Origin: Deltaproteobacteria bacterium
GTDB taxonomy: Bacteria > Myxococcota_A > UBA9042
Assembly: GCA_016875335.1 (NCBI GenBank)
Contig: VGRO01000038.1
Location: 1 to 36,846, forward strand
Length of the DNA: 36,846 nt
Reading direction: 5' to 3'
Shown: positions 7,151 through 36,846 of the stretch, in pieces
Numbering within the stretch: position 1 is the stretch's first letter
How the letters are laid out: each line of letters opens with the position of its first letter
Translations under genes and position numbers: made by a program
Notes under the pieces: generated by a model
Databases searched by the model: none
Seen by the model: only the letters and a program-made list of their open reading frames with translations
What the model was told of the DNA's origin: nothing

Positions 7151-7285
7151 GGGCAAGGAAATGATTTACTCAATCATTCCCCGGGCCCGTTTGCTTGCTC
7201 CGTGGGTCGCCAGCTCGCGGACCAAGGGTCCGACTCGCGGCTCCGTCCTGATGTGAGAGTGATCGACTTATTGTTTTCCAGTCCC
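7151..7285 (+). mobile_element. 135-bp hairpin MITE, copy 1 (target duplication TAA)
   Basis: Flanked by TAA at 7148-7150 and 7286-7288; the left TAA is the methyltransferase stop codon. The element begins GGGCAAGGAAATGATT and ends TTTTCCAGTCCC, giving imperfect termini (GGGCAAGGAAA against GGGACTGGAAA). Inside are a 5' hairpin around AAATGATT-TACTC-AATCATT and a central hairpin CGGACC-AAG-GGTCCG. The other intact copies are at 13123, 28941 and 31738, all 135 bp. There is no coding capacity. The 3-bp TNA duplication points to mobilisation by an IS5-family (ISL2/IS1031-like) transposase, which is inference. Confidence 0.8.
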
Positions 7286-14905: not shown

Positions 14906-17900
14906 CTATTTGACGACGATCTGGCCCTTCATGCCAAACGATGCGTGCGGGCCGCAGACGTAGTAGTAGGTGCCGGGCTTGGTGAACGGGATCTTCTTGG
15001 TCTGGCCAAAACCGACCGAGAAGCCGTCGGGCACCGGCACCGCGTCGCCGGATTCCCAGTCGGACTGCGACACCTCAATGACGTTGTGGTTGCCGGGCAC
15101 GGTGAATTCGACGATGTCGCCGACGGCGATGGTGAGCGGCGTGGGGGTGAAGGTGAAGCCGCTGGTCGTGACCTTGTGGATGGCCGGCGGCAGGCCGGTC
15201 TGGATGCGCACGTCGTCGACGAACCAACCGGGGCCGTCGTTGGCGAAGGAGTCCTTGGTGGTGAAGCGGAAGCGAATCTTGATCTTCTTGCCGATGTGCG
15301 CCTTGAGGTCCACGGTCATCAGGACCCATTTGTTCAAGTCGCCGATCGGCTGCTTGGGTACGGTCTGCAGCACGGTGGTGCCCTGCATGATGTCGACCAG
15401 CGCGTCTTCAAACGGCTCCGCGAATCCGGTGAACGACGCATACGACAGGACCGCCACGGGCACGCCGGTGAGATCGATTTCGGGCGACGTGGCATTGCCG
15501 GCCGAGACGCCGCCGGTGCCGGCATAGCTCGACCCGTCGTTGATGTTGAGCGAGCACGGCGGGCTGAAGGCCGCAGGCTGCGCCGGGGTGCCATCGACAC
15601 CCCAACCGACACCGTTGACACCCTTGGCGTCCAGGGTCCAGCCAGCGGGCACGCTGCAGGCATCGAAGCTCTCGTTGAGCCCGAGTTTGCACACCAACGT
15701 CGGTCCCTTGCAGGAACCGGCCGTGCACACGTCGCCGTCGGTGCACGCCACGCCGTCATCGCACGCCACGCCGTCCTTTTGCGGCGTGAAACTGCACAAG
15801 GCCTGGCTGCCGTTGACCGCACAGGCGTCGACCGTGCACGGGTTCTTGTCGTCGCACGCCGGCAGGGTGCCGCCACACTTGCCGGCCTTGCACACGTCGG
15901 CGTTCAGGCACGGGTTGTTGTCGTTGCAACTGCTGCCGTCGGCGCTGCTGCCGACGCCCACGCACGCACCGGCCTGGCAGTTGTCGCCCGTGGTGCACGC
16001 GTTGTTGTCGGTGCACAGGGCCTTGTCGGCCTTGGGCTGGCCGCCCGCGCACTTGCCGGCCTTGCAGCCCTCGGCGGTGGTGCAGTCGTTGTCGTCGCTG
16101 CAAACGGCGCCGTCGGCCATCGGCACCGCCGCGCAGTCGCCGCTCGCCGGTACGCAATTGTCGGTGGTGCAGCTGTTGCCGTCGTTGCACACCTTGGCCA
16201 CGCCGGCGCACGCCGAGTTCGCGCATTTGTCGGCGAGCGTACAGGCATTGCCATCGCTGCACGGGGCGCTGTTGGCGGCGTTGGTGCATCCGCCCGAGGT
16301 GACATTGCAGGTGTCGGTGGTGCACGGGTTGCTGTCGTTGCAGTCGGCATTGGTTTTGCAGGAGGCGTCGCCGATGACCAGGTTCTCGATGAATGCACCG
16401 ACCGTGGCATTGAACTGGCAGTTGGTGGCCGAGAACGAGAACTGCACCCGGAACCGCTGACCGATGAACTTGCTGGCGTCCAGTTGCACGACTTTCCAGT
16501 AGTTGGCGCTGTCGTAGGTCGCTGTCACCGCCGTGGCTGTCGAGTTGATGGGCAAAAGCGCCACGTCGAGGTTGTCGAAGCTGTTGTTTTCCCAGGCGCC
16601 GCTGTACTGGAACTTGACGTGCAGTTTGGTGCCAGTGTAGCCGGTGGCGTCGATGACCGGCGACAGCGCCTTGCCGCCGACCTTGGTGGCGCCGGTCGGG
16701 CACTGGAAGTCGACGTCGTTGTTGAAGTTGAGCGAACAATCCGGCGACAGGAAGCCGGGCGGATTGGGCTTGGCGTCCACCATCCAGCCCGGGCCCGGCT
16801 GCGGCGGGTCGTTGACGATGAGCCACGACGTCATGGGGTCGCCGCACTTGAAGTCGTTGGCGTAGGGCGGCTTGACCTCGGAACAGCCGTTGGTGTACGC
16901 CGACTTGCAACCCGCCTTGGGGTCACAACTGTCGGCCGTGCACTTGTCGCCGTCGTCGCACGAGATCGGCTGGCTGCCCTTGCACACGCCGGCCTGGCAC
17001 GCGCTGGCTTGGGTGCACACGTCGCCGTCGTTGCACAGGTTGGCGTCAAGCGGTGCCGACACGCACTTGGACTTGTCGCACTTCTCGACCGTGCACATGT
17101 CGGCGTCGGGCGGGCATTCGCTGTCTTGCGAACAGCCAGCGTTGGTAGGCGCGATGATGGTGACGTCGTCGATGAACCAGCCGGCACCGCCATTGGCGAA
17201 GCTGTCGCCGCTCTCGAAGCGGAAGCGAACCTTGATGGTCTTGCCCGCAAACTGCGCCAACGAAATCGGCGCCGGCTGGTACCAGGTCATGATCTTGTTT
17301 TCGGTCAACTGGAACGAGTAGGCCACCGACACGAAGTTGTCGGTCGAGATGTCGATGTACTTTCGGTCGTAGTTCGACCCGGTCTCAGTGTCGTAGTAGG
17401 TCCAATACTTGAGCACCTGACCAGGCCCGACAGCGACTGCCGGCGAAATCGCCGTGCCGTTGACCGTTCCCGCAAAGTCCTTGCCGTTGTTGAAGTTGAG
17501 CGAACACGCCGGGCTCTTGGGCGCTGGCGGGTTGGGCGTGGCGTCAAACGCCCACGCGCTGCCGTTGCTCGGCGCGCTCATCGTCCAGCCCGCGGTGTTG
17601 CAGTCCATCGGCCAGTCGGCAACCACGGCCACGGTGCAGGCAGTCGCGGCGGCCTTGCACAGGCCGGCCTTGCACACCTCGTTGACGGTGCACAGGTCAC
17701 CGTCGCTGCACGGGGCGTCCTCGGCCATGGGCACGCTGGCGCAGATCTTGCCGCCGGGTCCGTTCTGGGTGCAGGTGTCGAGCGTGCACGGGTTGCCGTC
17801 GTCGCAGGCGTTGCCGCCCTGGCACTTGCCCGACAGGCACTTGGGACCGGCGGCCACGCAGCCGTCGCTGGTCGAGCACGACGTGCCGTCGGCCGCCGCC

Positions 17901-20900
17901 ATCTTTGGCACGCACTTGCCACCCTTGCACGCATCGCCCGCGCTGCAGGCGTCGCCGTCGCTGCAACTGAGGTTGTCGGCCACCGGCAACCCGGTGCACT
18001 TGCCGTTGGCGCACGCGTCTTTGTCCGTGCACGCATTGCCGTCGCTGCAGAACGCCGCGTCGGCCAGCGGCGTGTAGACGCACCCCACCGCAGGGTCGCA
18101 CTTGTCGCTGGTGCAGGCCTCGTTGTCGTTGCAGATCTTGCTCGGACCCGCCGCGCACGCGCCCGCCTTGCAGTTGTCGGCTAGCGTACACGGGTTGCCG
18201 TCCTCACACGGGGTGCCGACAAGCGGGGTGAACGTGCATTTGCCAGTGGCGCAGGTGTCTTTGGTGCACGCGTCGCCGTCGCCGCAGTTGGCGTCGGTCT
18301 GGCAGCTCTTGGCTACGTCGGTCCAAATCGACAGGTCGTCGACGAACCAGCCAGCCCCGCTGTTGACATTGCAGTTGACCGAGTCAAAGCGGAAGCGGAC
18401 CTTGATCTCTTTGCCAGCGAGCGGCGTCAAGTCCACCAGCACCTGTTTCCATTGGGTATTGGTGCTGTCGTTGTCGACCAACAGCGACACCGGGATGGTC
18501 TTGAAGTCGTCGGCGCTGGCCTCGATGTAGCGCAGGTCGGCCGCATCGGCCGTGCCGGTGCCGGCCCACGACCACACCTTGAGCAACGCCGATTTGGCGC
18601 CGGCCAGGCTATAGGTCTTGGCCGACGCCGCGCTGCCGTCGACCTTGGTGGCGCCGGTCGGGCACGAGAAGTTCTGGCCATTGTTGAAGTTGAGCGAACA
18701 CGCCGGCGAGAAATAGCCGGGGTTGGCGGCCGTACCGTCGATGGCCCACTGCACGGGCGTCGGGTCGGCTTGCGGCGGCACGACCCAGCCACCCTTGCCG
18801 CAGTCGAACTTGTCGTTGGCGGCGTTGCTGCACGGCCCAACAGTTCCCACGCACTTGCCGGCCTTGCACGCGTCGCCCGCCGTGCACGGGTCGTTGTCGC
18901 TGCATGCGGCGTTGTCCGCGGCGGGCGCATTGGCGCACACCCCGGAGCTGGCGGTGCAGTTATCGGTCGTGCACGGGTTTGCGTCGTCGCACTTGGCGCG
19001 GCCTACGCACTTGCCGCCCTTGCAGTTGTCGTCGATGGTGCAGTTGTCGCTGTCGCCGCAGCTGCTGCCGTCGTCGGCGTTGGCGTATTTGCAGCCGGCG
19101 ACCGGGTCGCAGCTGTCGATGGTGCAGGCCTGGTTGTCGTTGCAGTTTGTGGCGGTGGGACCCAGGCAGCCGCCTGCGCCGTTGCAGACGTCGCCGGTCG
19201 TACACTTGCTGCCGTCGTCGCAGGGCAGCTTGTTGAACGGGTACTGGCAGGCGCCATTGACGCACTTGTCGTCGGTGCACGCGTTGCCGTCACCGCAGTC
19301 GCCGTCGCCGCCGCAGCCCTTGGCCTTGTCGGTGAGAAGCACCAGGTCATCGACGAACCAGCCTACGCCCGAATTGCTCAGGCAATGCAGCGAGTCGAAG
19401 CGGAATCGCACCTTGACGGTCTTGCCGGCCAGCGGCGTCAGGTCGAATGCCAGCAGCTTCCAGCCGTTGAGCGCCGATGCGCTGTTGTCGAGCTTCCACG
19501 CCAACGACACGGTCTTGAAGTCGTCGCCGCTGGCCTCGACCCAGCGCTGATCGGTGTAGTTGTCGGTGCTGACACCGGCCCAACTCCAGAACTTGAGCAC
19601 GGCCTGCTTGCTGCCCTCTAGGTTGAGCGCCGCGCCCAGCGTCGCCGTCCCTGCCACCTTGGCCTGGCCGGTCTGGCACAAAAAGCTCTTGCCGTCGTTG
19701 AAGTTGAGCGAGCACGCCGCCGACTTGTAGCCGGGCGGCAGCGCCGTGCCGTCCACCGACCAACCGCTGTGGGTGGCGGTCTCGGGCAAGGGGGCAATCA
19801 CGAACGCCTGGGCCTCGGTACAAGCAATCGCCAGGCTGTAGGCCACTGAGCACGGTCCAGCCGTGCCGGCGCACTTGCCGGCCGCACAGGCGTCGCCAGC
19901 GGTACAGGCGTCGGCGTCGCTGCATGGCGTGCCGTCGGGCGCGTTGGGCGTCGCACAGGTGAAAGTGCTGGCGTTGGGCGTGCACTTGTCGTCGGTGCAC
20001 GGATTGCCGTCGTCGCAAGTGGGGTAGGCGACGCACTTGACACTTTCACAGTGGTCGAGCTTGGTACAGGGGTCCCCGTCGTTGCAGGTGTTGCCGTCCG
20101 CCAGCGGCTTGAAGACGCACTGGCCGGACAGCTTGTCGCAACTGTCGCTGGTGCACGGGTTCTTGTCGTCGCACGGCACGGCGCTGCCTGCGCAGTTGCC
20201 CTCTGCGTCGCAAGCGTCGTCGGAGGTGCACTTGTTGTTGTCGTCGCAGTCGCCCGCGGGCTTGGCGAGGTTCACGCAGCCCTTCTGCTTGTCACAACTG
20301 TCGGCGGTGCAGGCGTTGCCGTCGTCGCAGGCGCCGTTGTCGCTCAGGCACTTGCCGGCCTTGCACACGTCCTTGGTGCAGGCGTCGCCGTCACTGCACG
20401 CCGCGCTGTCGTCCGCGGCATTGCTGCAGCCAGCCTTGGCGTCACAGGCGTCCTTGGTGCACGGGTTCTTGTCGTCGCAACTGGAGAGCGCGCTCACACA
20501 TTTGCCGGCCTTGCAGCCCTCCGCGGTGCACGCGTCGCCATCGGTGCAGGTGGCGGTGTCAGGCAGCGCCGCGTTCTTGCAGCCGTCCTTGGCGGCACAG
20601 GTGTCGGCCGTGCACACGTTGTTGTCGTCGCACAAGCCCGGTTTTTCGTCGACGGCGCCGCTGCAATCGTTGTCGATTCCGTCGCAGACTTCGATCGAAG
20701 GCGTCGCGGCGGTGCACGGGGTCAGGCCGGCCGCAGTGCAGGTGCGGTCCGCTTTGCAGGGGCCGTTGCTGCAGGTGGTGCTGGCGCCCGCGGCGATGGC
20801 GGCCGGGCTGCACTTGCAGACCGCGTTGTCCTTGGGCTTGCAGAACTTGCCCTTGGCACCGCTGACGTCCGCGCCGTCCACGCAGCTATACCCATCGGGG

Positions 20901-21817
20901 CAGTCCGGGCTCAGCAGGCACTGGAACCCGCAGAAACTGCCGTCGCCGCCAAACGCAACGCATGCCCCGGCCTTGCCCGCTGCGGACGGCTGGGCGCACT
21001 GGTCGTTCGCCTTGCACGGCGAGCACAGCGCGATGTCTTGTTCGAGGCACAACGCCTTGCCGCCCGCCTTGGCGCAGCCGAATCCCGCCGGGCAGGCGTC
21101 GTTGGCGCCGCAGGCCGCCACGCACACTGGCTTGCCGGCCAGGTTCAGGCCACATTCGCCGCTGGCGCAGTCCTTGGATTCCTTGCACGCGCAGCCCGTT
21201 GCGCCGGGGCAGACCGGGCCGGCGTCGGCGGTTTCGGCCGCAACGTCGCCGGTGTCGCCCGAGGCCGTTTCGCCGCCCGCAGCGTCGGTGTCGGGGGCCA
21301 GCGCGGTTTCGCCACCGGTCGCGTCCCCGTCCGCGCCAGCGGTGGTCTCGGCCGCGACGTCATCCAAGGTTTCAGCCGCCGTCTCGGCGGTCACTTCTGC
21401 GGTGACCTCGGCCGCGACGTCCGGCGCAATTTCCGCCTCGGTATCCGGTCCGACCTCCGCGGCCACCTCCGCGGCCACCTCTGCGGCGACTTCTGCGGCG
21501 ACTTCTGCGGCCACCTCGGCGGCGACTTCGGACGCGGCTGCGTCCGTGTCGGCTGCGGTGTCGGGTGCGGCATCGACGGCCGCGTCGGTTCCGCCGCCCG
21601 TGGTGTCGATGGGGACGCCGTCCTCGCCGCCGCCTCCGATGGTGTCAGTGGTCACGGCCTGGTCGGCCACACCGACCGCGTCGGCCCCGGTGTCGGCGGT
21701 GGATGTGCTGCCGCCGCCCGCGCCGCACGCCGCCAGTGCGGACAGGGCGCACAGTATCAAAAGACGCCACAGCACCGACGCGCGGACGCGCGCGCCAAAA
21801 CTCGCCGACGTTGTCAT
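14906..21817 (-). CDS. 2303-aa Cys-rich lipoprotein with five beta-sandwich domains and a C-terminal cupredoxin
   Basis: The ATG at 21817 gives a classical lipoprotein signal ending L-A-A-C (about residues 28-31), with TTGAGG 8 bases upstream. A long Thr/Ala/Glu/Val stalk follows, including six E-V-A-A units (about 97-122), then a Cys-rich block (225-370) with a MopE-type motif [10 protein letters not shown]. Many C-x-D-G-x-x-C-T repeats are interspersed with five homologous domains of about 165 residues (about 656-830, 995-1170, 1393-1560, 1650-1823, 2043-2209). Each has C-S-L-N-F-N-x-G near the start, and four of the five end with a G-W-F-[VI]-D-D-type motif (jelly-roll or MAM-like fold); the fourth is degenerate there (G-A-F-I-E-N). 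The last 94 residues form a plastocyanin-like domain with type-1 copper ligands: His2244 in G-N-H-N-V and C-G-P-H-A-S-F-G-M (Cys2288, His2291, Met2296). The protein is presumably surface-anchored. A role in electron transfer, copper handling or adhesion is inferred. Confidence 0.87.
21452..21529 (-). repeat. Six 12-bp coding repeats (E-V-A-A) in the lipoprotein stalk
   Basis: Near-perfect 12-base units read GAGGTGGCCGCG with variants on the minus strand and encode Glu-Val-Ala-Ala. They lie just after the lipobox in the presumed extended stalk. Because the unit is a multiple of three, length change by slippage would keep frame and vary stalk length. Confidence 0.8.
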
Positions 21818-21905
21818 GCGATGCCTCAAACGGGTTCTGGAAAGGACCGCGCGCCGACCCGCGCGCTTCGCCGCGGCCGCCGGTGGAGCGGCAGGCCGAA
21901 CGCGC

Positions 21906-21935
21906 AGTGTAACGAAGTGTGTACAGGGGGCGCAA
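21906..21935 (-). promoter_or_regulatory. Possible promoter of the cupredoxin lipoprotein gene
   Basis: On the minus strand, TTGCGC (21930-21935), an 18-base spacer and TACACT (21906-21911), about 90 bases before the ATG at 21817. It is one of few less GC-rich spots in the divergent region 21818-22193. The match is weak, and no other element is seen there apart from the plus-strand promoter candidate at 22129. Confidence 0.25.
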
Positions 21936-22128
21936 GCCCGTCTGCATCCCCGCATGCTTCGAGGTGCGGCCCCTCAAAGGCGCGGCGGCGCCGATGGTTT
22001 CGGCTTGCGCTCCAGCGACTTGGCCAGGACCAGAAGCCGGATGACTGGCCTTCCGCCGGCACGGCCTCGACCCTCGCCGCAGCGTTGCGACCGAGACTGG
22101 CCCGACGAACACCGCGTCCTTTTTCGCC

Positions 22129-25674: not shown

Positions 25675-27030
25675 TCACCCCGCCCGAAATCCCTCGATTT
25701 CGTCGGCGCCGATCCCCGCGTACGTCAACCAGCGATAGACCTGCCTGCGGTGGACGCCGAACTCGTGGGCAAGCGCCTCGACGCGTCCGTGATGCCGGCG
25801 CAGGGCATCGCGCAGGTGGGCGGGAGGCGGCCTGCGGGCCTCCGTCGGCGTCAGCGTCGCCTCGGGCCGGGCCACGGCGACCTTGCGGATCAGGTCGTCG
25901 GGCAGGTGCTCCAGGCCGACCGGGTCGCGACCGGCCAGCGCCCGCGCCCGCGACAAGGCCCCGCGCAGCGACCGCAGGTTGTCGAGCCAGTTGTGCAGCA
26001 GCACCGCCTCGGCGGCCTCCGTGGTCAGCCGGTCCGCCCACATCTTGGGAGGGCGGCCGTCGACCAGGGGCAGGACCACGTCGGCGAACTCCAGCACGTC
26101 CGCGCGCCGGTCGCGCAATGGCGTCAGGTGCACCGTGTTGCTGCGCAGCCGTGCCAAGAGGTCGCGGCGAAACCGCCCTTCGCGGACCAGGGTCTCCAGA
26201 TCGGCGTTGGTCGAGGCGACGAAGCGCACGTCCACGCGCAGATCCGCGCTGCCGCCCACCGGACGCACCAGGTTTTCTTCCAGCACCCGCAGCAGCTTGG
26301 GCTGCAGGTGGGCCGGCAGGTCGCCGATCTCGTCCAGCACCAGCGTGCCGTGGTTGGCCTCGCGCACCCGGCCCATGCGCGCGGCGGTCGCGCCCGTGAA
26401 CGCGCCGGCCACGTGGCCGAACAACTCGGATTCGAAAAGTTCCGAAGGCACGGCAGCGACGTTCATGCGCACGATCGGGCCGGTCCTCCGGCTGAGGCGG
26501 TGGATTTCGGCGGCCGCGTGTTCCTTGCCGGTGCCCGTCTCGCCGACCAGCAGCACGTGCAGGGGTTGTTCGGCGGCCAGCGCGACGTCAAAGCGCGTCA
26601 ACCGGGCACGTTCGGTCCGGCCGGGCAGGTTGGGCGTCGGATCGGCGTATTGCAAGGCCGTGCCGGCATCGGCCTCGAGCACCAGGACCGTTCCACCCAA
26701 CCGCACCACCGCGCCGTCGCCCAGTCGGGCCTGTCGCACGGGCTGCCCTCCGGCCCAGGTGCCGTTGCGGCTGTCGAGGTCGCGCAACCATACGCCGCTC
26801 AGGTCCGGGTGCACCAGCAACTGGTCGCGCGACAGCGCCGGGTCGTCCAACTGCAGGCCAGCGGCCTTGCGACCGACTGTCCACGGCGCCATGGGCATGC
26901 GCACCACGCGCCCGGCGTGGGCCGGATCTGGACACTTGACCACGTGCAGGCGCCAAACCATGCTGCTCGAGCCCGGTGGCACCTTGGGCAGGTCGGGGGT
27001 GATGGTGGTGGTGGTGCTGTCGCGGTCCAT
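25675..27030 (-). CDS. FHA-domain sigma-54-dependent transcription activator
   Basis: A 451-aa protein from the ATG at 27030. Order: a Thr-rich tail (S-T-T-T-T-I-T, residues 5-11); an FHA domain (about 48-118) with G-R at 53-54 and R-N-G-T at 88-91, but S-R-D-Q in place of the usual S-x-x-H; an AAA+ sigma-54 interaction domain (about 140-370) with Walker A G-E-T-G-T-G-K-E (163-170), the sigma-54-contacting loop G-A-F-T-G-A (209-214) and Walker B T-L-V-L-D-E (229-234); and a Fis-type helix-turn-helix (about 415-440). Activators with an FHA in place of a receiver domain are common in Myxococcota and respond to Thr phosphorylation. The kinase gene ends 8 bases upstream, so the pair is probably co-transcribed and the kinase is the likely partner. 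Targets are unknown. Confidence 0.92.
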   Translation of the reverse strand: MDRDSTTTTITPDLPKVPPGSSSMVWRLHVVKCPDPAHAGRVVRMPMAPWTVGRKAAGLQLDDPALSRDQLLVHPDLSGVWLRDLDSRNGTWAGGQPVRQARLGDGAVVRLGGTVLVLEADAGTALQYADPTPNLPGRTERARLTRFDVALAAEQPLHVLLVGETGTGKEHAAAEIHRLSRRTGPIVRMNVAAVPSELFESELFGHVAGAFTGATAARMGRVREANHGTLVLDEIGDLPAHLQPKLLRVLEENLVRPVGGSADLRVDVRFVASTNADLETLVREGRFRRDLLARLRSNTVHLTPLRDRRADVLEFADVVLPLVDGRPPKMWADRLTTEAAEAVLLHNWLDNLRSLRGALSRARALAGRDPVGLEHLPDDLIRKVAVARPEATLTPTEARRPPPAHLRDALRRHHGRVEALAHEFGVHRRQVYRWLTYAGIGADEIEGFRAG

Positions 27031-27038
27031 CGATCGGT

Positions 27039-28535
27039 TCACTTTGGGATGTAGGGCGCCTTCCAGTCGGCTTGCGCGGGCGCGGGGGGCGAGGGCGGGC
27101 TTTCCGCCGCCGTTTCGCCGCCGTGCGGTGCCGTCCGCGGGCGCTCGGCGCCAGCGCTCGCCGGGCGCTTGGCTCGCGCGAGGCGTATCACCGCAGGCGT
27201 CGCGGGTTCCGTCTGGATCGGCGCCGGGGTCGATGAAATCGGCCGGTGGACGCCCACCGGCATACCTGGAGGCGCCTGCGCCTCGACCCGCGCGGCGACC
27301 CTGCGGCTGTCCCCAGGTCCGACGGACGGCAGTTCGGTCGTACCCGGGGGTTGGTGCGCTGCGGACGGCGTTCGCGCCGACGGACCCGGCGTCGGGGCGC
27401 GCAAGGCTTGCACCCCGGCCAGCAGGCCAACCGCGGCGAGCCCGGACGCACCCACGATCCAGCTCCGGCGACTGCGGGCCTGCGGGATGGCCACCGAAAC
27501 CGTCTGGGTGCCCGTGCGCGATTCGCGCGCTTCGCCCGGTTGCGGGACTATCTGGGTCACCGGCCTCCATTCGGCGACCGACGCCGCCGGATCCGTCAAG
27601 GCCAGCCGCATGTCGCGCGCATTGGCAAACCGATCCGCGGGCCGCTTGGCCAGGGCGCGCATCACCACCTGTGCAAAGCGCGGCGACAACGCCACCGGGG
27701 CGACGCTGGCCACATCGGCGGCGGGCTTGTGCACGTGCCCCCACATCACGGCCATCGCCGTCGGCGCGCGAAACGGTGTGTGCCCCACCACACATCGGTA
27801 GAGCACGACTCCCAAGGCATACAGATCGGCGCGGGCGTCGACCGATTCACCTTGGCACTGCTCGGGACTCATGTATTCCGGTGTGCCCAACGCGTGCTCG
27901 GTGGGGGTCAGCGACGAGTCCTCGACCAGCGCGAGGCCAAAATCGAGGATTCGGACCGCACCGTCTGCGGCCCGCAGCGCGATGTTGCTGGGCTTGAGGT
28001 CGCGGTGCACCAGACCGGCCTCGTGCGCGACCTGCAAGCCGTCGAGCACGTGCTGGGCGATGCGCGTCGCCTCAGCCTCGCTGTAGACCTCGCCCTGGCC
28101 CAAGCGGTCGCGCAGGTGGGCTTCGAGCGTGCAGCCGTCGATGTACTGCATCGCGAGGTAGAGCGCCCCCGACTCGGTTTGGCCCACGTCGAGCACGCGC
28201 GCGAATGCGTCACCGTGCAGGCGGGCCGTGACCTGGGCCTCACGGAAGAAGCGGCGCAGCGACTCGGGGGTCGGCCGCTCGCTGCGCGGCAGCTTGAGCG
28301 CCACCGCGCCCAGGCCGAGCAGGTGCTCCGCGAGGTACACCACGCCGTGGCCGCCGCGGGCAATCTCCCGAACGATCCGATACTTGCCGCACACCATTGC
28401 GCCCGGTTCAAGGTCGACGCGGGCAGTGGCGAGGGCGTCCAGCGAGACCGTGGCAGTGCCATCGCGCGGGCAGACGGGCGCGCTGGCCGACTGGCCGCAT
28501 GCGGGGCAGAGGCGAATGGGCGCTGGAGACGCCAT
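27039..28535 (-). CDS. Ser/Thr protein kinase with N-terminal zinc ribbon and one membrane span
   Basis: A 498-aa protein from the ATG at 28535. It starts with a zinc ribbon C-P-A-C-G...C-P-R-D-G (10-26), followed by a Hanks-type kinase: glycine loop R-G-G-H-G-V-V (60-66), V-A-L-K with catalytic Lys81, H-R-D-L-K-P-S-N (177-184), D-F-G (198-200) and the activation segment G-T-P-E-Y-M-S-P-E (217-225). A membrane helix (about 359-377) follows, then a Pro-rich tail of about 110 residues presumably in the periplasm. The open frame reaches 28727, but the ribbon and a leaderless-type promoter support 28535. It forms a two-gene unit with the FHA activator. It likely senses an envelope cue and phosphorylates Thr residues, possibly in that activator's tail (inference). 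Confidence 0.92.
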   Translation of the reverse strand: MASPAPIRLCPACGQSASAPVCPRDGTATVSLDALATARVDLEPGAMVCGKYRIVREIARGGHGVVYLAEHLLGLGAVALKLPRSERPTPESLRRFFREAQVTARLHGDAFARVLDVGQTESGALYLAMQYIDGCTLEAHLRDRLGQGEVYSEAEATRIAQHVLDGLQVAHEAGLVHRDLKPSNIALRAADGAVRILDFGLALVEDSSLTPTEHALGTPEYMSPEQCQGESVDARADLYALGVVLYRCVVGHTPFRAPTAMAVMWGHVHKPAADVASVAPVALSPRFAQVVMRALAKRPADRFANARDMRLALTDPAASVAEWRPVTQIVPQPGEARESRTGTQTVSVAIPQARSRRSWIVGASGLAAVGLLAGVQALRAPTPGPSARTPSAAHQPPGTTELPSVGPGDSRRVAARVEAQAPPGMPVGVHRPISSTPAPIQTEPATPAVIRLARAKRPASAGAERPRTAPHGGETAAESPPSPPAPAQADWKAPYIPK

Positions 28536-28541
28536 GGGCGG

Positions 28542-28570
28542 ATTGTCGGCGGGACGGCGGCAGCCGTCAA
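28542..28570 (-). promoter_or_regulatory. Putative leaderless promoter of the kinase gene
   Basis: On the minus strand, TTGACG (28565-28570), a 17-base spacer and GACAAT (28542-28547). Transcription would start at or next to the A of the ATG at 28533-28535, leaving no leader; no Shine-Dalgarno is present there. Confidence 0.35.
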
Positions 28571-28739
28571 GGTGCCATTCGCGCTGTGTCGGCGACGCGC
28601 ACGGCGCTTCCGTCATTTCGGGTGCCGAGTCCGTGGTCGGCAGCGATCCGCGTTCGTCCGGCGGGTGCGACCAGGTCCTGCGGCCACCGGTTCGAGCGAC
28701 GGGGTGCCGGCGCAATCCTTCCGACATGGCCCGGGTAAG

Positions 28740-28936: not shown

Positions 28937-28940
28937 GTAA

Positions 28941-29075
28941 GGGACTGGAAAATAACAAGTCGATCACTCTCACATCAGGACGGAGCCGCGAGTCGGACCT
29001 TTGGTCCGCGAGCTGGCGACCCACGGAGCAAGCAAACGGGCCCGAGAAATGACGGAGTAAATCATTTCCTGGCCC
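28941..29075 (-). mobile_element. 135-bp hairpin MITE, copy 3 (inverted)
   Basis: Same 135 bp as the other copies, in reverse orientation. The flanks are TAA (28938-28940) and TCA (29076-29078), one mismatch from a TNA duplication. The central stem is CGGACC-TTT-GGTCCG. The 5' hairpin is shortened by a TT-to-CG change (GAAATGA/TCATTTC). With MITE 2 it fills the gene-free stretch before the Hsp70-like gene; 29079-29240 holds only the small palindrome at 29132. Confidence 0.78.
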
Positions 29076-29131
29076 TCATCAAGCCTGCGGGTTGGGAAAC
29101 CTGGCCGAGGCAAGGCCCAAGGCGGGACAGT

Positions 29132-29326: not shown

Positions 29327-31632
29327 ATGCTCGCCATCGATTTCGGGACTTCGCGCACCAAGGTCGCCTACATGGACACCCGTCGCGGCGAGGCGCGCCT
29401 GTACCGCATCGGCCGCGGCGAGAGCCCGTCGATCCCCTCGCTTTTCTACCTCGGCCCGGGCGGTGAGCGCTTGGTCGGCGACGACGCCTACGACAAGCTG
29501 GAGGGCGAGGCCAACCGCGTCATCCGGGTGCTCAAGCGGCGCCTGCGCGACAGGCAGGTGCGCGCGGGCGGACAGAAGGCGACACCCGAGGAACTGCTGA
29601 CGTTGCTGCTGACCGAGATTCGCCGCCGCTCGACAGACGAAGTGCCCGCGTTTCAAGGGTTTGCTCCGACCAGCGTGGCGCTGACCATTCCGGCGGCGGG
29701 CGCCGGGTCGGGTCCCGCGATCGAAGAACTGATGAAGCGCTGCGCCGAGGCCGCCGGTTTCGACGACGTGACGGTCCTGACCGAGCCCGAGGCCGCCGCG
29801 CTCGGCTGGCGCAAAGACGAGGGCCGCTACAGCGACGAAGAGGCCGTGGTGGTGCTCGACTGTGGCGGCGGGACGGTCGACTGGGCGTGCCTTCGGCGCG
29901 TCGGCGACCGCTATCGGCTCTACGCCGACTGCCCGGCCGGTGGCGACGAGCAGGTCGGCGGCGAGCACCTGGACGAGGACCTGTATGCGTTGGCACGCGA
30001 GCGTCTGGCCGCCTCCGCAGACGCCGCCGCACTGGACGAGTTGGACCAGCACGCCACCAACTACATGAACCGAATCCGCAGGATGCGCGAGCGATTCTGT
30101 CAGTTGGGCGCCAAGGCGGCGCCGCGCCCGGAGACCCTGACCGTCGGATCGGCCAAGGTCGAGTTCACGGCCGACGATTTTCGCCAAGCGTTTGAGCGCC
30201 GCTTCATCGCCAAGGTCTGCGACGGCTTTGGCCGCTACCTCGACGAAGTGCGGCGGGCCACCAACGTGCAGGTGCCCAAGGTGCTGTTGGTGGGCGGCAG
30301 CTTCCAGACGACCGGGCTGCGCGAAGCGTTGCGCGACCGCTGCCGATGCACGCCGACGCACTGGGACGCCAGTGAGTATGCCCCGGTGCGCGGTGCGGTG
30401 TGGGCGGCCGGCGGCATCGCCGTCAGCGCCGTGATGCCGGCCGTGGGCGCCACGTCGCCGATCGCGGCCCCGGCCCTCGCCTCGCCCGCAGCCGTACCGG
30501 TCCCGGCGCGAGCGGCCGCGCCAGCGCCTCAGCCTCCCGCCGCATGGGAACAGCACCGTTGGTACGCGCTGAGCGACGGGATCACGTCGCCCGTGTTGAC
30601 GACCGGGCAGTTGATCGACCGTTGGCGCACCGCGGCCCAGCCGGACGCCTTGCACGTCAACCTGGTGGGCACGGCCAAGTGGGGGTCGATGGGCGACTGG
30701 CCGGCCGAGTGGCCCGACCTGCGCACCTACGTCGCCCGCCCTGCGCCCCCCCTGGCCGCGCCCCCTCTGGCCGCGCCCCCTCTGGCCGCGCCCGGTGCAT
30801 CGGCGCCGAACGCGACCGTGCCAATCGTGCCGGTCCAGCGCGAGGCCACCCGCCCTATCGCGGCCTTCAACCCGTCGGAAGTACCCAAGCGGATCGATGG
30901 ATTCGTGTTCCAGGGCGCCCCCCGTCGGCCGCGCAGGCCAAGACCCCGTCGGCGACGCCCGCGCTGCCGCCCATGCCGGTTGGGCCGGCGCCCGTCACGA
31001 TTCCGCCGCCACCGTCGGGACCTGCGCCGCAGTCCGCGGCTGTCGCCCCCGCCGCTGGCGCACCGCCCCGGGTGCTTGCGCGCGCGGTCGTCGTCGGTCC
31101 TGGGTTGCCGAACGGCGACACGCTGCCCATCACCGTCGAATCCGCCATCGTCGGCCGCAACAAGGACTGCGACGTGGTGCTCAACGACGGCAGCGTCAGC
31201 AAGCGCCACGCGCGAATTTTGCTGCACGGCGGCAGCGTGGCAGTCGAAGACCTCGGCAGCACCAATGGCACCTACGTCAACGGTCGACGCATCCAGGCCA
31301 GAACGGTCGTCCACGCCAAAGATGTCGTCAGTTGCGGCGACTTTGACTTGCGCGTCGCTGCCGTAGAGGCCCTCGCCGGGCCGGTGTCGCTCGGCTTTGC
31401 CGTAGTGCGCGGCGAGGTGGTCGACGTGGACGCGGGCGGACCGGCCCACTTTGGCGGCGTGCGCCCAGGCTGGAAACTGCTGGAGTTGGACGGTCAGGTC
31501 GTCTCGGACCAGGCGCAGGTGGACGCCATCGCCGCCGCGCACCGGCCCGGTCGGGAGGTCGTCGCCGTGTTCCTCAACGCTCGGCGCGAAGAACAGGCAG
31601 TGCCGATCGAGGTGCGCCGGGTGCGGGGCTGA
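29327..31632 (+). CDS. Hsp70-like ATPase fused to GYF2-like, FHA and PDZ domains (frameshifted)
   Basis: The ATG at 29327 starts an Hsp70/actin-fold ATPase: phosphate-1 loop D-F-G-T-S-R-T-K (5-12), phosphate-2 L-D-C-G-G-G-T-V-D (177-185) and adenosine motif V-L-L-V-G-G-S (319-325). The substrate-binding half of DnaK is missing. After a Pro/Ala linker, residues about 407-468 (H-R-W-Y-A-L-S-D-G...K-W-G-S-M-G-D-W) resemble a GYF_2 domain. A second linker carries three 15-bp repeats. At a six-C run (30918-30923) the frame is lost; one extra C restores G-A-P-P-S-A-A-Q and a protein of about 768 aa. It then has an FHA domain with G-R, S-K-R-H and S-T-N-G-T, and a PDZ domain (V-S-L-G-F...G-V-R-P-G-W-K-L-L-E-L-D-G). 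Lesion or assembly error is undecided. A cytoplasmic signalling ATPase binding phospho-Thr partners is inferred. Confidence 0.8.
30752..30793 (+). repeat. Three 15-bp coding repeats in the Pro/Ala linker
   Basis: CTGGCCGCGCCCCCT starts at 30752, 30767 and 30782 (the last copy is partial at its end) and encodes Leu-Ala-Ala-Pro-Pro in the linker between the GYF2-like region and the FHA domain. Frame is kept if copy number changes. Confidence 0.8.
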
Positions 31633-31734: not shown

Positions 31735-31737
31735 TCA

Positions 31738-31872
31738 GGGCCAGGAAATGATTTACTCAATCATTTCTCGGGCCCGTTTGCTTGCTCCGTGGGTCGCCAG
31801 CTCGCGGACCAAAGGTCCGACTCGCGGCTCCGTCCTGATGTGAGAGTGATCGACTTATTGTTTTCCAGTCCC
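31738..31872 (+). mobile_element. 135-bp hairpin MITE, copy 4 (target duplication TCA)
   Basis: Bounded by TCA at 31735-31737 and 31873-31875. The right TCA is, on the minus strand, the TGA stop of the coiled-coil gene, so the element sits on a stop codon that the duplication preserves. Termini are GGGCCAGGAAA and TTTTCCAGTCCC. The 5' hairpin is intact and the central stem is CGGACC-AAA-GGTCCG. Confidence 0.8.
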
Positions 31873-32694
31873 TCAGTCGCGTGGCACCGCCCAAGGCCTG
31901 GGTTCTGGCGCACCAAACTTGGCCAGCGCCGCCGCATGGGCCGCCAGCGCGGCGCGCAAACTGTCGTTCTCGCTGCGCAGTCGCGCCAGTTCCGCCGCGT
32001 CGGTCAGGCGCTGCCGCTCCAAGGCGACCACGCGCTGCAAGAGCGTGGCGATGCGGGCCCGCAGGTGGGCGTTTTCAGCGGCAATGGCGTCAGCCCGGGC
32101 CCGCAGTTGCGCCGCGGCCGCCTGGTGCTTGCGCAGGCGCGCGGCCAGGACTTCGCGTTGCCGCTGCAGCGCCGCCCGCTCGGCGTGTGCTCCGGCCTCC
32201 AACTGCTGCAGCAGGCGATCGACGCGCGACTTGTCCGCCAACACGCGCTGGGTTTCACTTGCAGCAGCGGCCAGTTCGACGGCCCGCTCGGCCTCGATGC
32301 GCTGCGCGGCCAGCAGGCGGGCCGCCGCCTCGGCATAGACGCGGGCCATGTCGCGGTTGGCCTGCAGCTTGGCGACTTCGGTGGCTGGCGCCTTCGGCAA
32401 CGCGGCGTCCAGGTGGGCGCCACAGGACTCGAACGCAGCATGCGCCGCGCCGTAGTCGGTCAGCGCCCACAGGCACGCAGCCTGGGTGCAGCGGTCGCGC
32501 GGGTCGCCATGGCGGTCGGCCAGGGCGCCAAACACACCGCAGGCCCTGCGCATGAGGCCCACGTCCTTGCTGCGGTACCAGGCGCGCGCTTGTTGCCGTT
32601 CCGCATCGGCCGGCGGGTCAGCAGCGGCGAACTGCGCAGCCACACAACTGCCTAGCCAAACGCCAAGCCAGAGGACACCGACGCGTGACTTCAT
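31873..32694 (-). CDS. Secreted coiled-coil protein, last gene of the dynamin operon
   Basis: A 273-aa protein; the ATG at 32694 overlaps the TGA of the preceding gene (ATGA), implying translational coupling. It has an N-terminal signal peptide (about 1-25) with a possible lipobox L-G-S-C, a short helical region with Cys pairs that may be TPR-like (30-100), and a long Ala/Arg/Glu/Leu coiled coil (about 105-260). Coiled-coil periplasmic proteins of this kind, like the YbgF/CpoB type, often work with envelope complexes, but no family can be assigned. Its stop codon coincides with the target duplication of MITE copy 4. Confidence 0.75.
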   Translation of the reverse strand: MKSRVGVLWLGVWLGSCVAAQFAAADPPADAERQQARAWYRSKDVGLMRRACGVFGALADRHGDPRDRCTQAACLWALTDYGAAHAAFESCGAHLDAALPKAPATEVAKLQANRDMARVYAEAAARLLAAQRIEAERAVELAAAASETQRVLADKSRVDRLLQQLEAGAHAERAALQRQREVLAARLRKHQAAAAQLRARADAIAAENAHLRARIATLLQRVVALERQRLTDAAELARLRSENDSLRAALAAHAAALAKFGAPEPRPWAVPRD

Positions 32695-33284
32695 GGGGCC
32701 CCCGTGCCGCCAGGGTCGAAGAAGTTTTCATGGACGTTGACGGGTTCGGGTTCGTCGTGCAGCCAAGTCAGGGTCAGGCTGAGGACTTCAAAGCCCAACG
32801 CGTAGCCGGCTGGCGAAAACTGGCTCTCCCTTTTGGGTCCGAGGGCCACCATGAAGCCCATTTGCAGCCCCAATTTGAGACCGAGCGGACCGACCGGCTC
32901 CATGTGCACCAAATGCGGTCCCACGCGGATGACGCCGAACCGCACGAAACGGTTGCCACTTTTGCTCGACAGCGCCTCTTCGTACGATAGGCCCAGCGCG
33001 AACGCGGACAAGCTGAGCAGCGAAAGGCGGCCAGATCTGCCAATCCGGTAGTTGAGGAAATCGACGCCGCCACCAAGTAGGGTAAGCGACGGATCCAGTC
33101 CATCGGCTTGCAGCGTCGCACCAGGTAGTACCACGAACGCCGTCATCGGCAGCGACCGAATGCCATAGTGGGCATCCAGCACCCCGTCTGCGGCCTGCAC
33201 CGGCCGGCTGCCAACGAGCACAACGCACGCAACGCCTGCCCCGAGCCATGCAAGGGCAGCGCGCCCCACCCTGGTTGCGCCCAT
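32691..33284 (-). CDS. Small exported protein, probably an outer-membrane beta-barrel
   Basis: A 197-aa protein with an N-terminal signal peptide (cleavage near V-Q-A-A, about residue 31). The rest is alternating hydrophobic/polar strands with many Gly (L-T-L-L-G-G-G-V-D-F-L-N-Y-R-I; L-G-L-K-L-G-L-Q-M-G-F-M-V-A-L-G), typical of small outer-membrane barrels. The final 20 residues are polar and do not end in an aromatic residue. The start codon overlaps the TGA of the GTPase gene (TGATG) and the stop overlaps the next ATG, so it is tightly coupled in the operon. No named family recognised. Confidence 0.75.
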   Translation of the reverse strand: MGATRVGRAALAWLGAGVACVVLVGSRPVQAADGVLDAHYGIRSLPMTAFVVLPGATLQADGLDPSLTLLGGGVDFLNYRIGRSGRLSLLSLSAFALGLSYEEALSSKSGNRFVRFGVIRVGPHLVHMEPVGPLGLKLGLQMGFMVALGPKRESQFSPAGYALGFEVLSLTLTWLHDEPEPVNVHENFFDPGGTGAP

Positions 33285-35194
33285 CACGCCGCCTTGCTGG
33301 TCGCGCCTGCAGGCGCGGTGGCGGGGGCCGTGACTTTGGCGAGCCGCGCCGCAAACTCCTGGATGAGCGCCGCTGCGGCCTTGGCCTGATCGACCGCGTG
33401 CTTGTGGCCGTCTTTGTTCCTGGCGCGCTGGCTGGTGAGCCAATCTTGCAGCTCCGCCAGTTCGTGCCGGCGCCTGGCCGCGGCCGCCTCGAAAAGCGCC
33501 TCGCCCGCACGGCGAAACTGGGTGACCAGGTCTTCGACGAGCTGCAAAGTGGTCGCGGTGGCGGTTCGGAACTCGCCCTGCAGGCTCGGCACCAGCTTGG
33601 CGCGCAAGACTGCGACTTCTTTGGTCAGCGCTTCCTGCGCTTTGCGCGAGCTCATCCACCACAGTACCGCGACGCCCGTGACCAGCCCGACCGGAGGAAA
33701 CAGCGCCGACGCCGCGCCACCCACGCTCATCGCCAGCGACATGCTGGTCAGCACGTGTTCGGCCCGGGTCGCGCGCGGCTCTTCGATGGTGATTTCGCCG
33801 CCGCCCGCCAACACTGCGTCCGCCGCACCCGCGATGTCCGGTTCCTCCAGATCGAGTTCGGCCTCGCCCAGCAGCGTCCGCGACGCCTCGGTCAGCCGAT
33901 CCAAGGCCGCCTCGCGCAGGGCCGTGCCGACGGCCACGGTGACGGCGGCGCAGTCTTCGCGGCAGCGCTCGACCAGGCCGTTGATGCGGGCCTGCAGCCC
34001 AGACGTCGGGTTGCTGAGCACCTCGGCCACGGCCGTTTCGATGCTGCGATACAGATCGCCCGGCGGCGAGGTCTGCAGCGCCGCGCGGGCCTCGCGGGCG
34101 GCGTCGCGTTGTAGGTCCACCAGCGCCTGGTTGAAGAAGCGCACGGCCTGGCGGTGGTCATTCTGAAGCCAGTCGCTCAGCACCCTGCGGCGTTCGTTGT
34201 ACGAGGCCTCCACCTGCGCAATGTCGCCGGTCGCGACAGCCGTGGCCTGCGCTGCGCGCTCCAGCACCGCCTTGCTCGCCGTAGCCAAGAGCGCCTTGCA
34301 ATCGGCGGCACAGCGCGTCTCCGCCTGCTTGCGCCGCGCGCCGCCAAGCCTGTCGATGAGGAACTTGCGCAAGTCCTCGATGCCGCTGCGCTTGAGGAGT
34401 TTCTCCTTGTGCTCGGGCGGCGCGGTCTCGGCGCGGGCGGCCAGGCGGGCGCTGACGCAGAAATAGGCCAAGGTGTTCGCTGGCTTGCCTGTGGCCTCGG
34501 CAAGGATCTCCAGGTTGCGCTTCTTCCAGCCGAGCACGTGCTCCGGGTCGGCGGCATCGGCCTTGGTCTGCACATAGAGGGTGAACTTTCCTAGCTTTTG
34601 CAACTGCTTGATGTAGTCCACCTCGTCTTTGGTCAGCACGGTCTCCACCGAGTCGGTGACGAAAAGCACGGCATCGGCAGTCGGCACATGGCGCCACGTG
34701 ACCGCCGCATGGTTGCGAAACAGGCCGCCCAGCCCCGGCGTGTCGAGCAGCGTGACGCCCGCGCCCAGAAAGGGCGACGGCGCGTACACGTTGATGGCGT
34801 CCACCTGCCGCAAGTTGGCCGGGTTGCCGTCCTCGGTGGCGTAGGCGGCCACTTCGGCGCGCGCGATGTGTTGGGTCGGCGGGGCGGTGCCGCCGGGCGG
34901 CGGGTAGAGTTCGACTTCGATACGCGGCGGGCCGTGGCGCAGGCGCAGCGCGACCGAGGTGGCCACGTCCGAGGACACGGGCGACAGGTCGGCGACGCCG
35001 GCCAGCGCGTTGATGAGCGAGCTTTTGCCCTTTTTGACCTCGCCGACCACGGCGATGGTTTGGTGCTGGGCTTGGGCGGCGGTGAGCGTCGCGAGTAGAT
35101 CGCGGGCCGGGGCCAGCACGTCGTGGTCGGCGGCGGCGGTGGAGAGGTCGTGCAACAGCCGTTCAAGCGTGTCCGGGGTTTGGGCTTTGGTCAT
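33284..35194 (-). CDS. Dynamin-like GTPase
   Basis: A 636-aa protein from the ATG at 35194, with GAAGAGAG about 8 bases upstream; a GTG at 35203 would overlap that site. It has a dynamin-type GTP-binding domain: G1 G-E-V-K-K-G-K-S-S (51-59), a switch-I region around S-D-V-A-T-S (75-80), G3 D-T-P-G (151-154) and G4 T-K-A-D (210-213). A long helical stalk follows, with a hydrophobic pair of segments at about 485-515 that could insert into membrane, then more helix and an Ala/Thr-rich tail. Bacterial dynamin-like proteins bend, fuse or repair membranes, mostly from the cytoplasmic face. Its genetic linkage to exported barrel and coiled-coil proteins suggests an envelope-remodelling machine. Dynamin-like genes have been seen near Hsp70-family genes in other bacteria, and one lies 1.7 kb away here. 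Confidence 0.88.
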   Translation of the reverse strand: MTKAQTPDTLERLLHDLSTAAADHDVLAPARDLLATLTAAQAQHQTIAVVGEVKKGKSSLINALAGVADLSPVSSDVATSVALRLRHGPPRIEVELYPPPGGTAPPTQHIARAEVAAYATEDGNPANLRQVDAINVYAPSPFLGAGVTLLDTPGLGGLFRNHAAVTWRHVPTADAVLFVTDSVETVLTKDEVDYIKQLQKLGKFTLYVQTKADAADPEHVLGWKKRNLEILAEATGKPANTLAYFCVSARLAARAETAPPEHKEKLLKRSGIEDLRKFLIDRLGGARRKQAETRCAADCKALLATASKAVLERAAQATAVATGDIAQVEASYNERRRVLSDWLQNDHRQAVRFFNQALVDLQRDAAREARAALQTSPPGDLYRSIETAVAEVLSNPTSGLQARINGLVERCREDCAAVTVAVGTALREAALDRLTEASRTLLGEAELDLEEPDIAGAADAVLAGGGEITIEEPRATRAEHVLTSMSLAMSVGGAASALFPPVGLVTGVAVLWWMSSRKAQEALTKEVAVLRAKLVPSLQGEFRTATATTLQLVEDLVTQFRRAGEALFEAAAARRRHELAELQDWLTSQRARNKDGHKHAVDQAKAAAALIQEFAARLAKVTAPATAPAGATSKAA

Positions 35195-35238
35195 GATCGC
35201 CACTCTCTTCAGCGCGCGCCGCGGTCTCGCTGGCGTCG

Positions 35239-36699
35239 CTACCAGCGAAGGCGGCCGATGCTCAGGCCGCTAGTTACATCAGGGCCGGACGCGATGACTT
35301 GTCCTACACGCGCAAACACGGACACGAACGACGGCCACCACCGCCACGTTGGCTTGCAGTCAACACCGGCATAGGCGACTGTGGCATTGAAATCAACGTC
35401 CTTGTACGAGTAGTTTCCGTCGCTATCCCGTTCATGGTAGCCATCGCGCACATCGGGCATTCGTTTTGGCCGGACGCCGTAGTCGACGCCCAAACCGAGG
35501 CGGACGAAGGGCCATGAGTAGTAGATCGACGAGCCGACCTTCCAGCCGCCGCCCTTGATTGCAGCGCCGTGGATGTGCAGGGCGACGTTCCAGATCCGCA
35601 CACCGACAGCACCACCGTAGCTCAAGTGATTGCCAAGAAAGGACTGCCATGTGTGTGCGGCCTCGAGCCGGGTGATAAGGCCTGACAAGGAGGCCGGTTC
35701 GCTGGGCGGGCCAAGCAGTGAAGGCGCGCCACCTCGGGTCTCCTCGCCGACGGCACTGGCTTTGGATGTCTCGGTTGTGGGCGGGGTCACCGCTCGCTCC
35801 GCAGACCTCGGCGTCCTGTCCTTGTCGGCCGGGCCGGTTCCAACCGCTCCCGCCTCGGCCTTTGGCGGCTTGGACGCTCGGGTGGCCTCTTCTGCCAGCG
35901 CTGGCGGCGGCGCAGGTGCCGCGGCCTTTGCCTCCCCCGCCACTTCCTTCGCGACGACCACCGGCGGCGGCGCCGGCGCCGCCTCCTTGGCGGGCGCCGC
36001 AACGGGCGCGGGCGCAGCTTCAACCGGCGCCGCCACCTTCTCCGCCTTGCCCGCCTCCTTCGCCGCCCCGCGCGCGCTCACCAGCTCTGCCCGCCACGCC
36101 TCCGCCTGCGCCCGCTCGGCCAACTCCTTCGGTGCCACCGCCAAAAAGGCCTCGTACACGGCAATTGCGCGATTGGCTTCGCCCGCAAGGTGCAGCGCGC
36201 GGGCCTCGCGCAGCTTCCACAGCAGCTTCTTTGGGTTCAAACGCGCAGCTTCGGCCCACAGCGAAGCCGCGGTGCCAAACTTGCCGGATTTCTCGGCTTC
36301 TGCGGCGCTGTCGGCCGCGGCCTGGGCTTGGCGTTCCTGCACTTCGACCAGACGCTCTTGGGCGGTGGCGCGCAGCTCGGCCGGCAGGTTGGGCAGGCCC
36401 AGCAGTTCGCGAAGCAGCTCGGCCGCCCGCTCCAGTTTTTCGCCGAACATGAACGCTCGGGCGGCGTTATTCAGCGCCACCGGGTTGGTCTTGTCCTGCC
36501 GATACACTTCGAGGAAAAGCTCGCCCGCGCGCACGAAGTTGCCCTCTTCAAAGGCGCGGTTGGCGCTGGCGACCAGCACGTCGATGACTTTGCCCTTGGG
36601 GGCGGCGACCGCCGGCACGGCGGACGTGACCGCGCATACAGCCAGCAACACGGCCCACAGTGGCCCGCGCCAAGCGCTACAAGGCTTCCAGTTTTGCAT
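35239..36699 (-). CDS. TPR protein with C-terminal outer-membrane beta-barrel
   Basis: A 486-aa protein from the ATG at 36699. Signal peptide (1 to about 33, ending A-V-A-A). Residues about 38-190 are TPR-like helical repeats (A-F-E-E-G-N-F-V-R-A-G-E-L-F-L-E-V-Y). A long Ala/Pro/Lys/Glu linker (about 205-325) could span the periplasm. The last 150 residues are amphipathic strands with many aromatic residues and end in R-L-R-W, a terminal aromatic like the outer-membrane barrel signal. It probably links the outer membrane to periplasmic partners. It overlaps the upstream gene by 23 bases, and the GTPase gene starts 44 bases downstream. Confidence 0.78.
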   Translation of the reverse strand: MQNWKPCSAWRGPLWAVLLAVCAVTSAVPAVAAPKGKVIDVLVASANRAFEEGNFVRAGELFLEVYRQDKTNPVALNNAARAFMFGEKLERAAELLRELLGLPNLPAELRATAQERLVEVQERQAQAAADSAAEAEKSGKFGTAASLWAEAARLNPKKLLWKLREARALHLAGEANRAIAVYEAFLAVAPKELAERAQAEAWRAELVSARGAAKEAGKAEKVAAPVEAAPAPVAAPAKEAAPAPPPVVVAKEVAGEAKAAAPAPPPALAEEATRASKPPKAEAGAVGTGPADKDRTPRSAERAVTPPTTETSKASAVGEETRGGAPSLLGPPSEPASLSGLITRLEAAHTWQSFLGNHLSYGGAVGVRIWNVALHIHGAAIKGGGWKVGSSIYYSWPFVRLGLGVDYGVRPKRMPDVRDGYHERDSDGNYSYKDVDFNATVAYAGVDCKPTWRWWPSFVSVFARVGQVIASGPDVTSGLSIGRLRW

Positions 36700-36846
36700 C
36701 GGCTTTCTTCTTGTCGGTTGTGGGTTTGCTGATTTTCTTCTTGGCAGCGGCCGGTGCCGCCGGTGTGGGTGCATCGCCGCCGTTCGCAGGGGCCACAGGG
36801 GCGGCCACCGCGGCAGGAGCCGCGGCAGCCGGCGGCTGCGGGGCCG
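36677..36846 (-). CDS. C-terminal end of a Pro/Ala/Lys-rich protein (cut by the window edge)
   Basis: The frame is open from the window edge to TAG at 36677-36679. The visible 56 residues are Ala/Pro-rich, then K-K-K-I-S-K-P-T-T-D-K-K-K-A-D-A-K-L-E-A-L. The composition resembles the linkers of the downstream TPR protein. It overlaps that gene's start by 23 bases, so it is the preceding gene of the same operon. Function cannot be told from this tail. Confidence 0.6.
   Translation of the reverse strand, partial: APQPPAAAAPAAVAAPVAPANGGDAPTPAAPAAAKKKISKPTTDKKKADAKLEAL

Follow-up and report, generated by a model that had tools for sequence, protein, structure and literature searches.

An IniA-type dynamin-like GTPase in a Myxococcota_A genome and its proposed place in a two-dynamin system with an Hsp70-like ATPase

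We analysed the whole of contig VGRO01000038.1 (36,846 bases; hereafter the window) from a Deltaproteobacteria bacterium (GTDB lineage Bacteria; Myxococcota_A; UBA9042; assembly GCA_016875335.1, hereafter the source genome). One end of the window carries five minus-strand genes, A to E (Table 1), and gene C, judged by its sequence and modelled fold, encodes an IniA-type dynamin-like GTPase, which we call DLP2. In many other bacteria, relatives of C share an operon with a second dynamin, DLP1, and a gene for an Hsp70-like ATPase. Here, the Hsp70-like gene faces the operon and DLP1 lies on a separate contig. We consider it likely that C is the membrane-binding, IniA-type subunit of a two-dynamin machine that is gated by a modular Hsp70-like ATPase and, in this bacterium, coupled to kinase/FHA signalling.

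Gene C resembles mycobacterial IniA in sequence, profile and fold

Gene C matches Dynamin_N (E 1.4e-18), and its GTPase motifs GEVKKGKSS, DTPG and TKAD are intact and conserved across the alignment. The PDB entry nearest to its GTPase domain is IniA. A profile of eight C relatives also had IniA as its best PDB match, over the full length (E 1.7e-39; positions 16-628 on IniA 10-602), with Nostoc BDLP1 a close second that was likewise matched over its full length (E 1.7e-34). An AlphaFold model of C built on an eight-sequence alignment (predicted local distance difference test (pLDDT) 81) consists of a GTPase head and a long helical stalk; its top Foldseek match is IniA with GTP (E 5e-16), at a template modelling (TM) score of only 0.42-0.47. 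A hydrophobic tip at residues ~490-513 is probably membrane-binding. We rejected assignment to the Bacillus-type DynA, in which two dynamins are fused in one chain, because C has a single GTPase domain and scores 34 bits against a cut-off of 1600 for the DynA model. We conclude that C is an IniA-type dynamin-like GTPase as far as sequence and model can tell.

A full-length relative of C (36% identity, E 2e-92) is present in genome G238, the only one found among 379 genomes of the phylum. The other genomes of the genus and family yielded no full-length relative, the best match among 21 being partial (31%). The nearest Myxococcota dynamins match C only in the GTPase domain and have other neighbourhoods that lack an Hsp70-like gene; we set them aside as a different family and used them as a negative control. 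Relatives in the family also carry other tandem dynamin pairs (L029, L097, L099 and L102), which are patchily distributed and are possible defence loci.

DLP2, DLP1 and an Hsp70-like gene form a conserved operon

The G238 locus (contig C235) has the order IniB-like acidic protein, DLP2, DLP1, Hsp70-like gene, together with three more Hsp70-like genes. Its DLP1 is 54% identical to that of the source genome over the full length (E 5e-172), and in each of its Hsp70-like proteins a membrane helix follows the ATPase domain. The C-termini of the four adjacent Hsp70-like genes (L151:1-8753) carry Big_2 in two cases and FGE-sulfatase in another, with no domain recognised in the remaining one.

With C as the sole query, an initial genome scan gave no matches, because the protein is too divergent for peptide patterns. 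Querying species genomes with DLP1 alone worked: of the eleven loci recovered, nine were new relatives, one was the G238 contig found before, and one was a weak match to a dynamin of a different kind. DLP1 is flanked by DLP2 and an Hsp70-like gene in records from Victivallales, Belnapia, Rhodopirellula, Thermoguttaceae and Planctomycetaceae, and a C39-like cysteine peptidase usually lies upstream in the Victivallales, Belnapia and planctomycete records. On one Planctomycetaceae contig, DLP1 is ~7 kb away from DLP2 and Hsp70; two of the contigs found carry DLP1 alone, and one from Chlorobiaceae carries two Hsp70-like genes with DLP1 at its end. Plasmids of Rhodococcus and Gordonia have the order dynamin, GTPase, Hsp70, several with C39 nearby, and in one of them the Hsp70 gene runs in the opposite direction, convergent with the others, as in the window. 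USK13 has GTPase and Hsp70 with C39, without an annotated large dynamin. In Anabaena the order is C39, dynamin, dynamin, and Hsp70 lies about 6 kb upstream. In profile comparisons, DLP2 pairs with the larger actinobacterial 'dynamin' and DLP1 with the smaller 'GTPase'. A Victivallales record (L153:4854-8219) encodes a fusion of an Hsp70-like domain with the GTPase domain of a dynamin.

The distance matrices of DLP2, DLP1 and Hsp70 correlate across 12 loci (r 0.95-0.96; 0 of 2000 permutations), an agreement owed in part to shared species history. The Hsp70 neighbour was not found at three control dynamins on plasmids of Lichenicola, Nostoc and Burkholderia, nor at the other Myxococcota dynamins. 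Both conserved partners of C, the second dynamin and the Hsp70-like ATPase, are predicted to be cytoplasmic. We found no description of a dynamin-Hsp70 operon in the literature searched, the coverage of which excluded subscription papers and preprints. The original prediction was to fall if the gene order occurred in this genome alone. The order B-C-D-E did prove unique to the source genome, whereas the wider neighbourhood of C recurs elsewhere.

Patchy distribution and the many plasmid-borne copies would be accounted for if C belonged to a LeoABC-like or tandem-dynamin system for conflict or defence against phages, and other tandem dynamins do occur in the same genome family. C is a member of the dynamin family, as is LeoA, and the PADLOC LeoBC and LeoA profiles match it with E values of 1e-24 and 5e-23. 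However, the Leo profiles match dynamins generally, the curated LeoA model gives 17.6 bits against a cut-off of 325, and the match of the IniA profile is stronger and full length. The gene set is also different, with no adjacent LeoA/LeoB/LeoC trio and no nuclease or phage-sensing partner seen, and matches of kinases to PADLOC PD-T4-6 are expected of any such kinase. We regard a defence function of this kind as rather unlikely.

The window carries a modular Hsp70-like gene within an inverted repeat

The Hsp70-like gene of the window is the sole one of its type in the source genome and is 42-49% identical to those of the G238 locus. Its ATPase domain extends from 29327 to ~30910 (HSP70 E 8e-10), and FHA (E 1e-20) and PDZ domains are encoded at 30931-31632. 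The reading frame switches at ~30900-30930, where a sequencing error and a true frameshift are both possible. The C-terminus that follows the ATPase domain varies by locus: FHA-PDZ here, and elsewhere TPR, ankyrin, Big_2, FGE-sulfatase or a dynamin domain. Although the gene shares its ATPase domain family with the chaperones DnaK and HscA, it falls far below their curated cut-offs, and the C-terminal half of these Hsp70-like proteins is replaced by other domains. A DnaK-type chaperone was rejected on a score of 43.7 against 822.55 bits and on the presence of FHA and PDZ in place of the substrate-binding domain and lid.

The gene is enclosed by the arms of a 137-nt inverted repeat (Table 1). 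Copies of the repeat, which is intergenic and dispersed, are also found at 7182-7230 and 13154-13202 in the window and on other contigs of the source genome. We suggest that recombination between the two arms could have inverted the Hsp70-like gene.

Genes A and B probably belong with a kinase, and DLP1 lies beside a truncated kinase

Ser/Thr kinases lie directly upstream in 11 loci that hold close relatives of gene B. These kinases end in Pro/Ala/Lys-rich tails of the same type as gene A (for example, KPKAPKPSAPKKK). Like A and B, the kinase and TPR genes there often overlap by a few codons. Because the kinases that precede B relatives have such overlapping tails, gene A is best taken as the tail of one such Ser/Thr kinase, truncated where the contig ends. 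Gene A had originally been described as a Pro/Ala/Lys-rich protein; the composition is as stated, but the visible part is only a tail and is best read as belonging to the kinase rather than to a separate protein. Gene B carries TPR (TPR_19 E 4e-7). Its TPR half matches 12 places in the source genome, has matches in 22 of 22 genomes of the family, and is up to 45% identical to the kinase-linked TPR proteins of that family. By homology, B is a member of this kinase-linked TPR family; here only the kinase tail is visible upstream. Several loci with B relatives have a giant surface protein downstream, and a module of kinase, TPR protein and giant surface protein recurs many times per genome in the family (L055-L074).

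DLP1 was found once in the source genome, on contig C309, where the order is IniB-like, DLP1, kinase. The Gly/Ala-rich acidic protein that adjoins DLP1 there also occurs in the G238 locus; its resemblance to IniB is compositional, with no Pfam or NCBIfam match. C309 ends inside the Pro/Ala tail of its kinase, and the window contig begins inside a comparable kinase tail. The source genome has 68 kinases. Among the contig-end-truncated kinases that we compared, the C309 kinase is most like the TPR-linked kinases (mean 334 bits; next, 297). We favour a join of the two contigs because, on average, no other truncated kinase compared is as similar to the TPR-linked kinases as that of C309, and because both dynamins occur together in other genomes. 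In our judgement, C309 very probably abuts the window contig, with the kinase reading into gene A.

An alternative is that a horizontally acquired dynamin was inserted by chance, with a kinase-TPR pair on one side and unrelated exported genes on the other, and has no function in common with them. This would fit the absence of full-length C from the other genomes of the genus and family, the near-orphan status of genes D and E, and the breaking up of the canonical operon here. However, the GTPase motifs of C are intact, and DLP1 and the Hsp70-like gene, present once each in the genome, have been retained either on the same contig or on one with a fitting end. We consider such an insertion improbable.

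Predicted exported proteins B, D and E appear specific to the lineage

Genes B, D and E each encode an N-terminal hydrophobic, signal-like segment. The original description of an envelope operon around a dynamin-like GTPase holds. The barrel labels given to B and D found no such confirmation. The C-terminal 140 residues of B have no Pfam or NCBIfam family match and no detectable kinship with D (score 28; shuffled mean 28.6), and a single-sequence model of D is uninformative (pLDDT 39). D itself has no Pfam or NCBIfam match. A search for its relatives gave one weak match (E 5e-4) in 360 genomes of the phylum, which sits within an unrelated 847-residue protein; the 22 genomes of the family were also searched. 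D is thus a predicted exported near-orphan with essentially no relatives. Gene E gave no convincing family match and is possibly a lipoprotein, since its WLGSC motif fits a lipobox. On these comparisons, B, D and E appear to be lineage-specific.

It had been proposed that C acts directly with outer-membrane B and D and exported E in a trans-envelope remodelling, vesiculation or secretion machine, with the operon as the functional unit. The genes overlap and are probably co-transcribed, B, D and E bear export signals, the C-terminus of B and D look strand-rich by eye, and hairpins are present in the poor model of D. By contrast, D has no relatives beyond its weak match, the order B-C-D-E was not found elsewhere, relatives of B accompany kinases rather than dynamins, no barrel was confirmed, and the partners conserved with C are predicted to lie in the cytoplasm. 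A machine of this kind seems unlikely to us. The pairing of an inner GTPase with outer-membrane partners lacks support, but the remodelling or vesiculation part of the proposal remains sensible: IniA has membrane fission activity and iniAC affects vesicle release (PMC6715688, PMC11077946).

A model for a dynamin pair under Hsp70-like control

To the gene content, homology, conserved operon and fold class described above, we add a contig join, Hsp70 control, a kinase-FHA link and membrane activity, all of which we infer. IniA carries out GTP-dependent membrane tethering and fission (PMC6715688), and mycobacteria require both IniA and IniC for normal vesicle release (PMC11077946). Bacterial dynamins commonly work as unlike pairs, and the dynamin adjoining BDLP1 has a DnaJ-like domain (PMC6104087). 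Because of this literature on IniA/IniC and paired dynamins, and of the anatomy of the locus, we propose an inner-membrane dynamin pair gated by the Hsp70-like ATPase. The core parts would be DLP2 (gene C), a more soluble DLP1 and the Hsp70-like ATPase, encoded in one operon in many bacteria and rearranged here. The local layout would run from IniB-like, DLP1 and kinase on C309 through the kinase tail to B, C, D and E, with the Hsp70-like gene facing. The two dynamins would assemble as a pair at the inner membrane, on its cytoplasmic side, with the tip of DLP2 inserted into it, and GTP hydrolysis would power membrane tethering, fission or repair. The Hsp70-like ATPase retains the nucleotide-binding domain, and exchangeable domains for sensing or docking stand where the usual substrate domain would be; it would govern assembly or disassembly of the dynamin coat. 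Its FHA domain may read phosphothreonine written by the operon's own kinase, and B, D and E would be exported add-ons.

Several observations weigh against this model. The ends of C309 and the window contig were compared and have no sequence overlap, some ten other kinases are likewise truncated by a contig end, and the joined order would place DLP1 first, whereas the usual order is DLP2-DLP1. The Hsp70-like gene is convergent with the operon and outside it, whereas elsewhere it is usually co-directional, and a C6 run at ~30914 marks a change of frame between its Hsp70-like and FHA-PDZ parts. DLP2 is present in only 2 of 360 genomes of the phylum, and the agreement of the distance matrices partly reflects species history.

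Among the closest known systems is mycobacterial iniBAC. C is nearest to IniA by sequence, profile and fold; in the loci of relatives, a large dynamin lies beside a smaller second one (DLP1 being on a separate contig here); and the C309 and G238 clusters include a Gly/Ala-rich protein that matches IniB in composition, although not through a family model. Unlike iniBAC, the wider family has a conserved Hsp70-like ATPase, kinase, TPR, D and E are added here, and identity to the actinobacterial plasmid counterparts is only ~20%. Nostoc BDLP1 (2J68/2W6D) shares the stalk-and-tip fold but is a weaker match than IniA; the DnaJ-like domain of its neighbour hints at an Hsp70 theme in a different arrangement. 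Campylobacter Cj-DLP1/2 (5OWV; Foldseek rank 6) are likewise two different dynamins encoded side by side, and form a heteromer, but sequence similarity is lower and the passages of PMC6104087 consulted describe no Hsp70-like gene there.

More tentatively, we put forward the possibility that a dynamin pair with a dedicated modular Hsp70-like ATPase (bearing FHA, TPR, ankyrin, Ig-like or FGE domains) is a widespread, undescribed membrane-remodelling system, in which signals would lead the ATPase to switch dynamin assembly, in a manner akin to the disassembly of coats by eukaryotic Hsc70. In Myxococcales, the system may add its own transmembrane kinase, which would write the phosphate read by FHA and so link the machine with kinase/FHA signalling. 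Bacterial dynamins have usually been studied pair by pair and their regulators are mostly unknown. The Hsp70-like neighbour, in one case fused to a dynamin, is a candidate regulator that can be tested in Planctomycetes, Actinomycetes, Cyanobacteria, Proteobacteria and myxobacteria. It also offers a frame for the control of iniBAC-type systems, which influence both vesicle release and drug tolerance in mycobacteria.

Gene layout of the window

Recomputed coordinates confirmed the five minus-strand genes exactly as first reported, with overlaps of 23 (A/B), 1 (C/D) and 4 bases (D/E) and a 44-base gap between B and C. Overlaps of this size are ordinary for operons of high-GC genomes and are not remarkable alone. 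The codon-position guanine-cytosine (GC) content of B-E is gene-like, with third-position GC above second-position GC. Gene A runs into the contig end.

Table 1 Features of the operon and its surroundings (window coordinates unless stated)
Feature	Position	Strand	Description
Gene A	36677..36844; stop 36677, start beyond contig end, 55 codons visible	-	Best read as Pro/Ala/Lys-rich C-terminal tail of a Ser/Thr kinase
Gene B	35239..36699	-	Predicted exported TPR protein, Pro/Ala linker, ~140-residue strand-rich C-terminus
Gene C (DLP2)	33284..35194 (alternative start GTG 35203)	-	Predicted IniA-type dynamin-like GTPase
Gene D	32691..33284	-	Small, predicted exported near-orphan protein
Gene E	31873..32694	-	Predicted exported helical/coiled-coil protein, possible lipoprotein
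Hsp70-like gene with FHA/PDZ	29327..31632	+	HSP70, FHA and PDZ domain matches; convergent with operon
Inverted repeat, left arm (137 nt)	28940..29076		97% complementary to 31737-31873
Inverted repeat, right arm	31737..31873		Abuts stop of gene E
Candidate kinase domain for gene A	Contig C309, L033:3657-5000

Elsewhere in the window, a Ser/Thr kinase (27039-28727) and an FHA-sigma54 activator (25675-27795), which make up a second signalling pair, lie on the same strand as the operon within 25675-28727. The stretch 14906-21955 encodes a surface-type protein of 2349 residues that has Dictyostelium CTDC repeats and, at its C-terminus, a plastocyanin-like domain.

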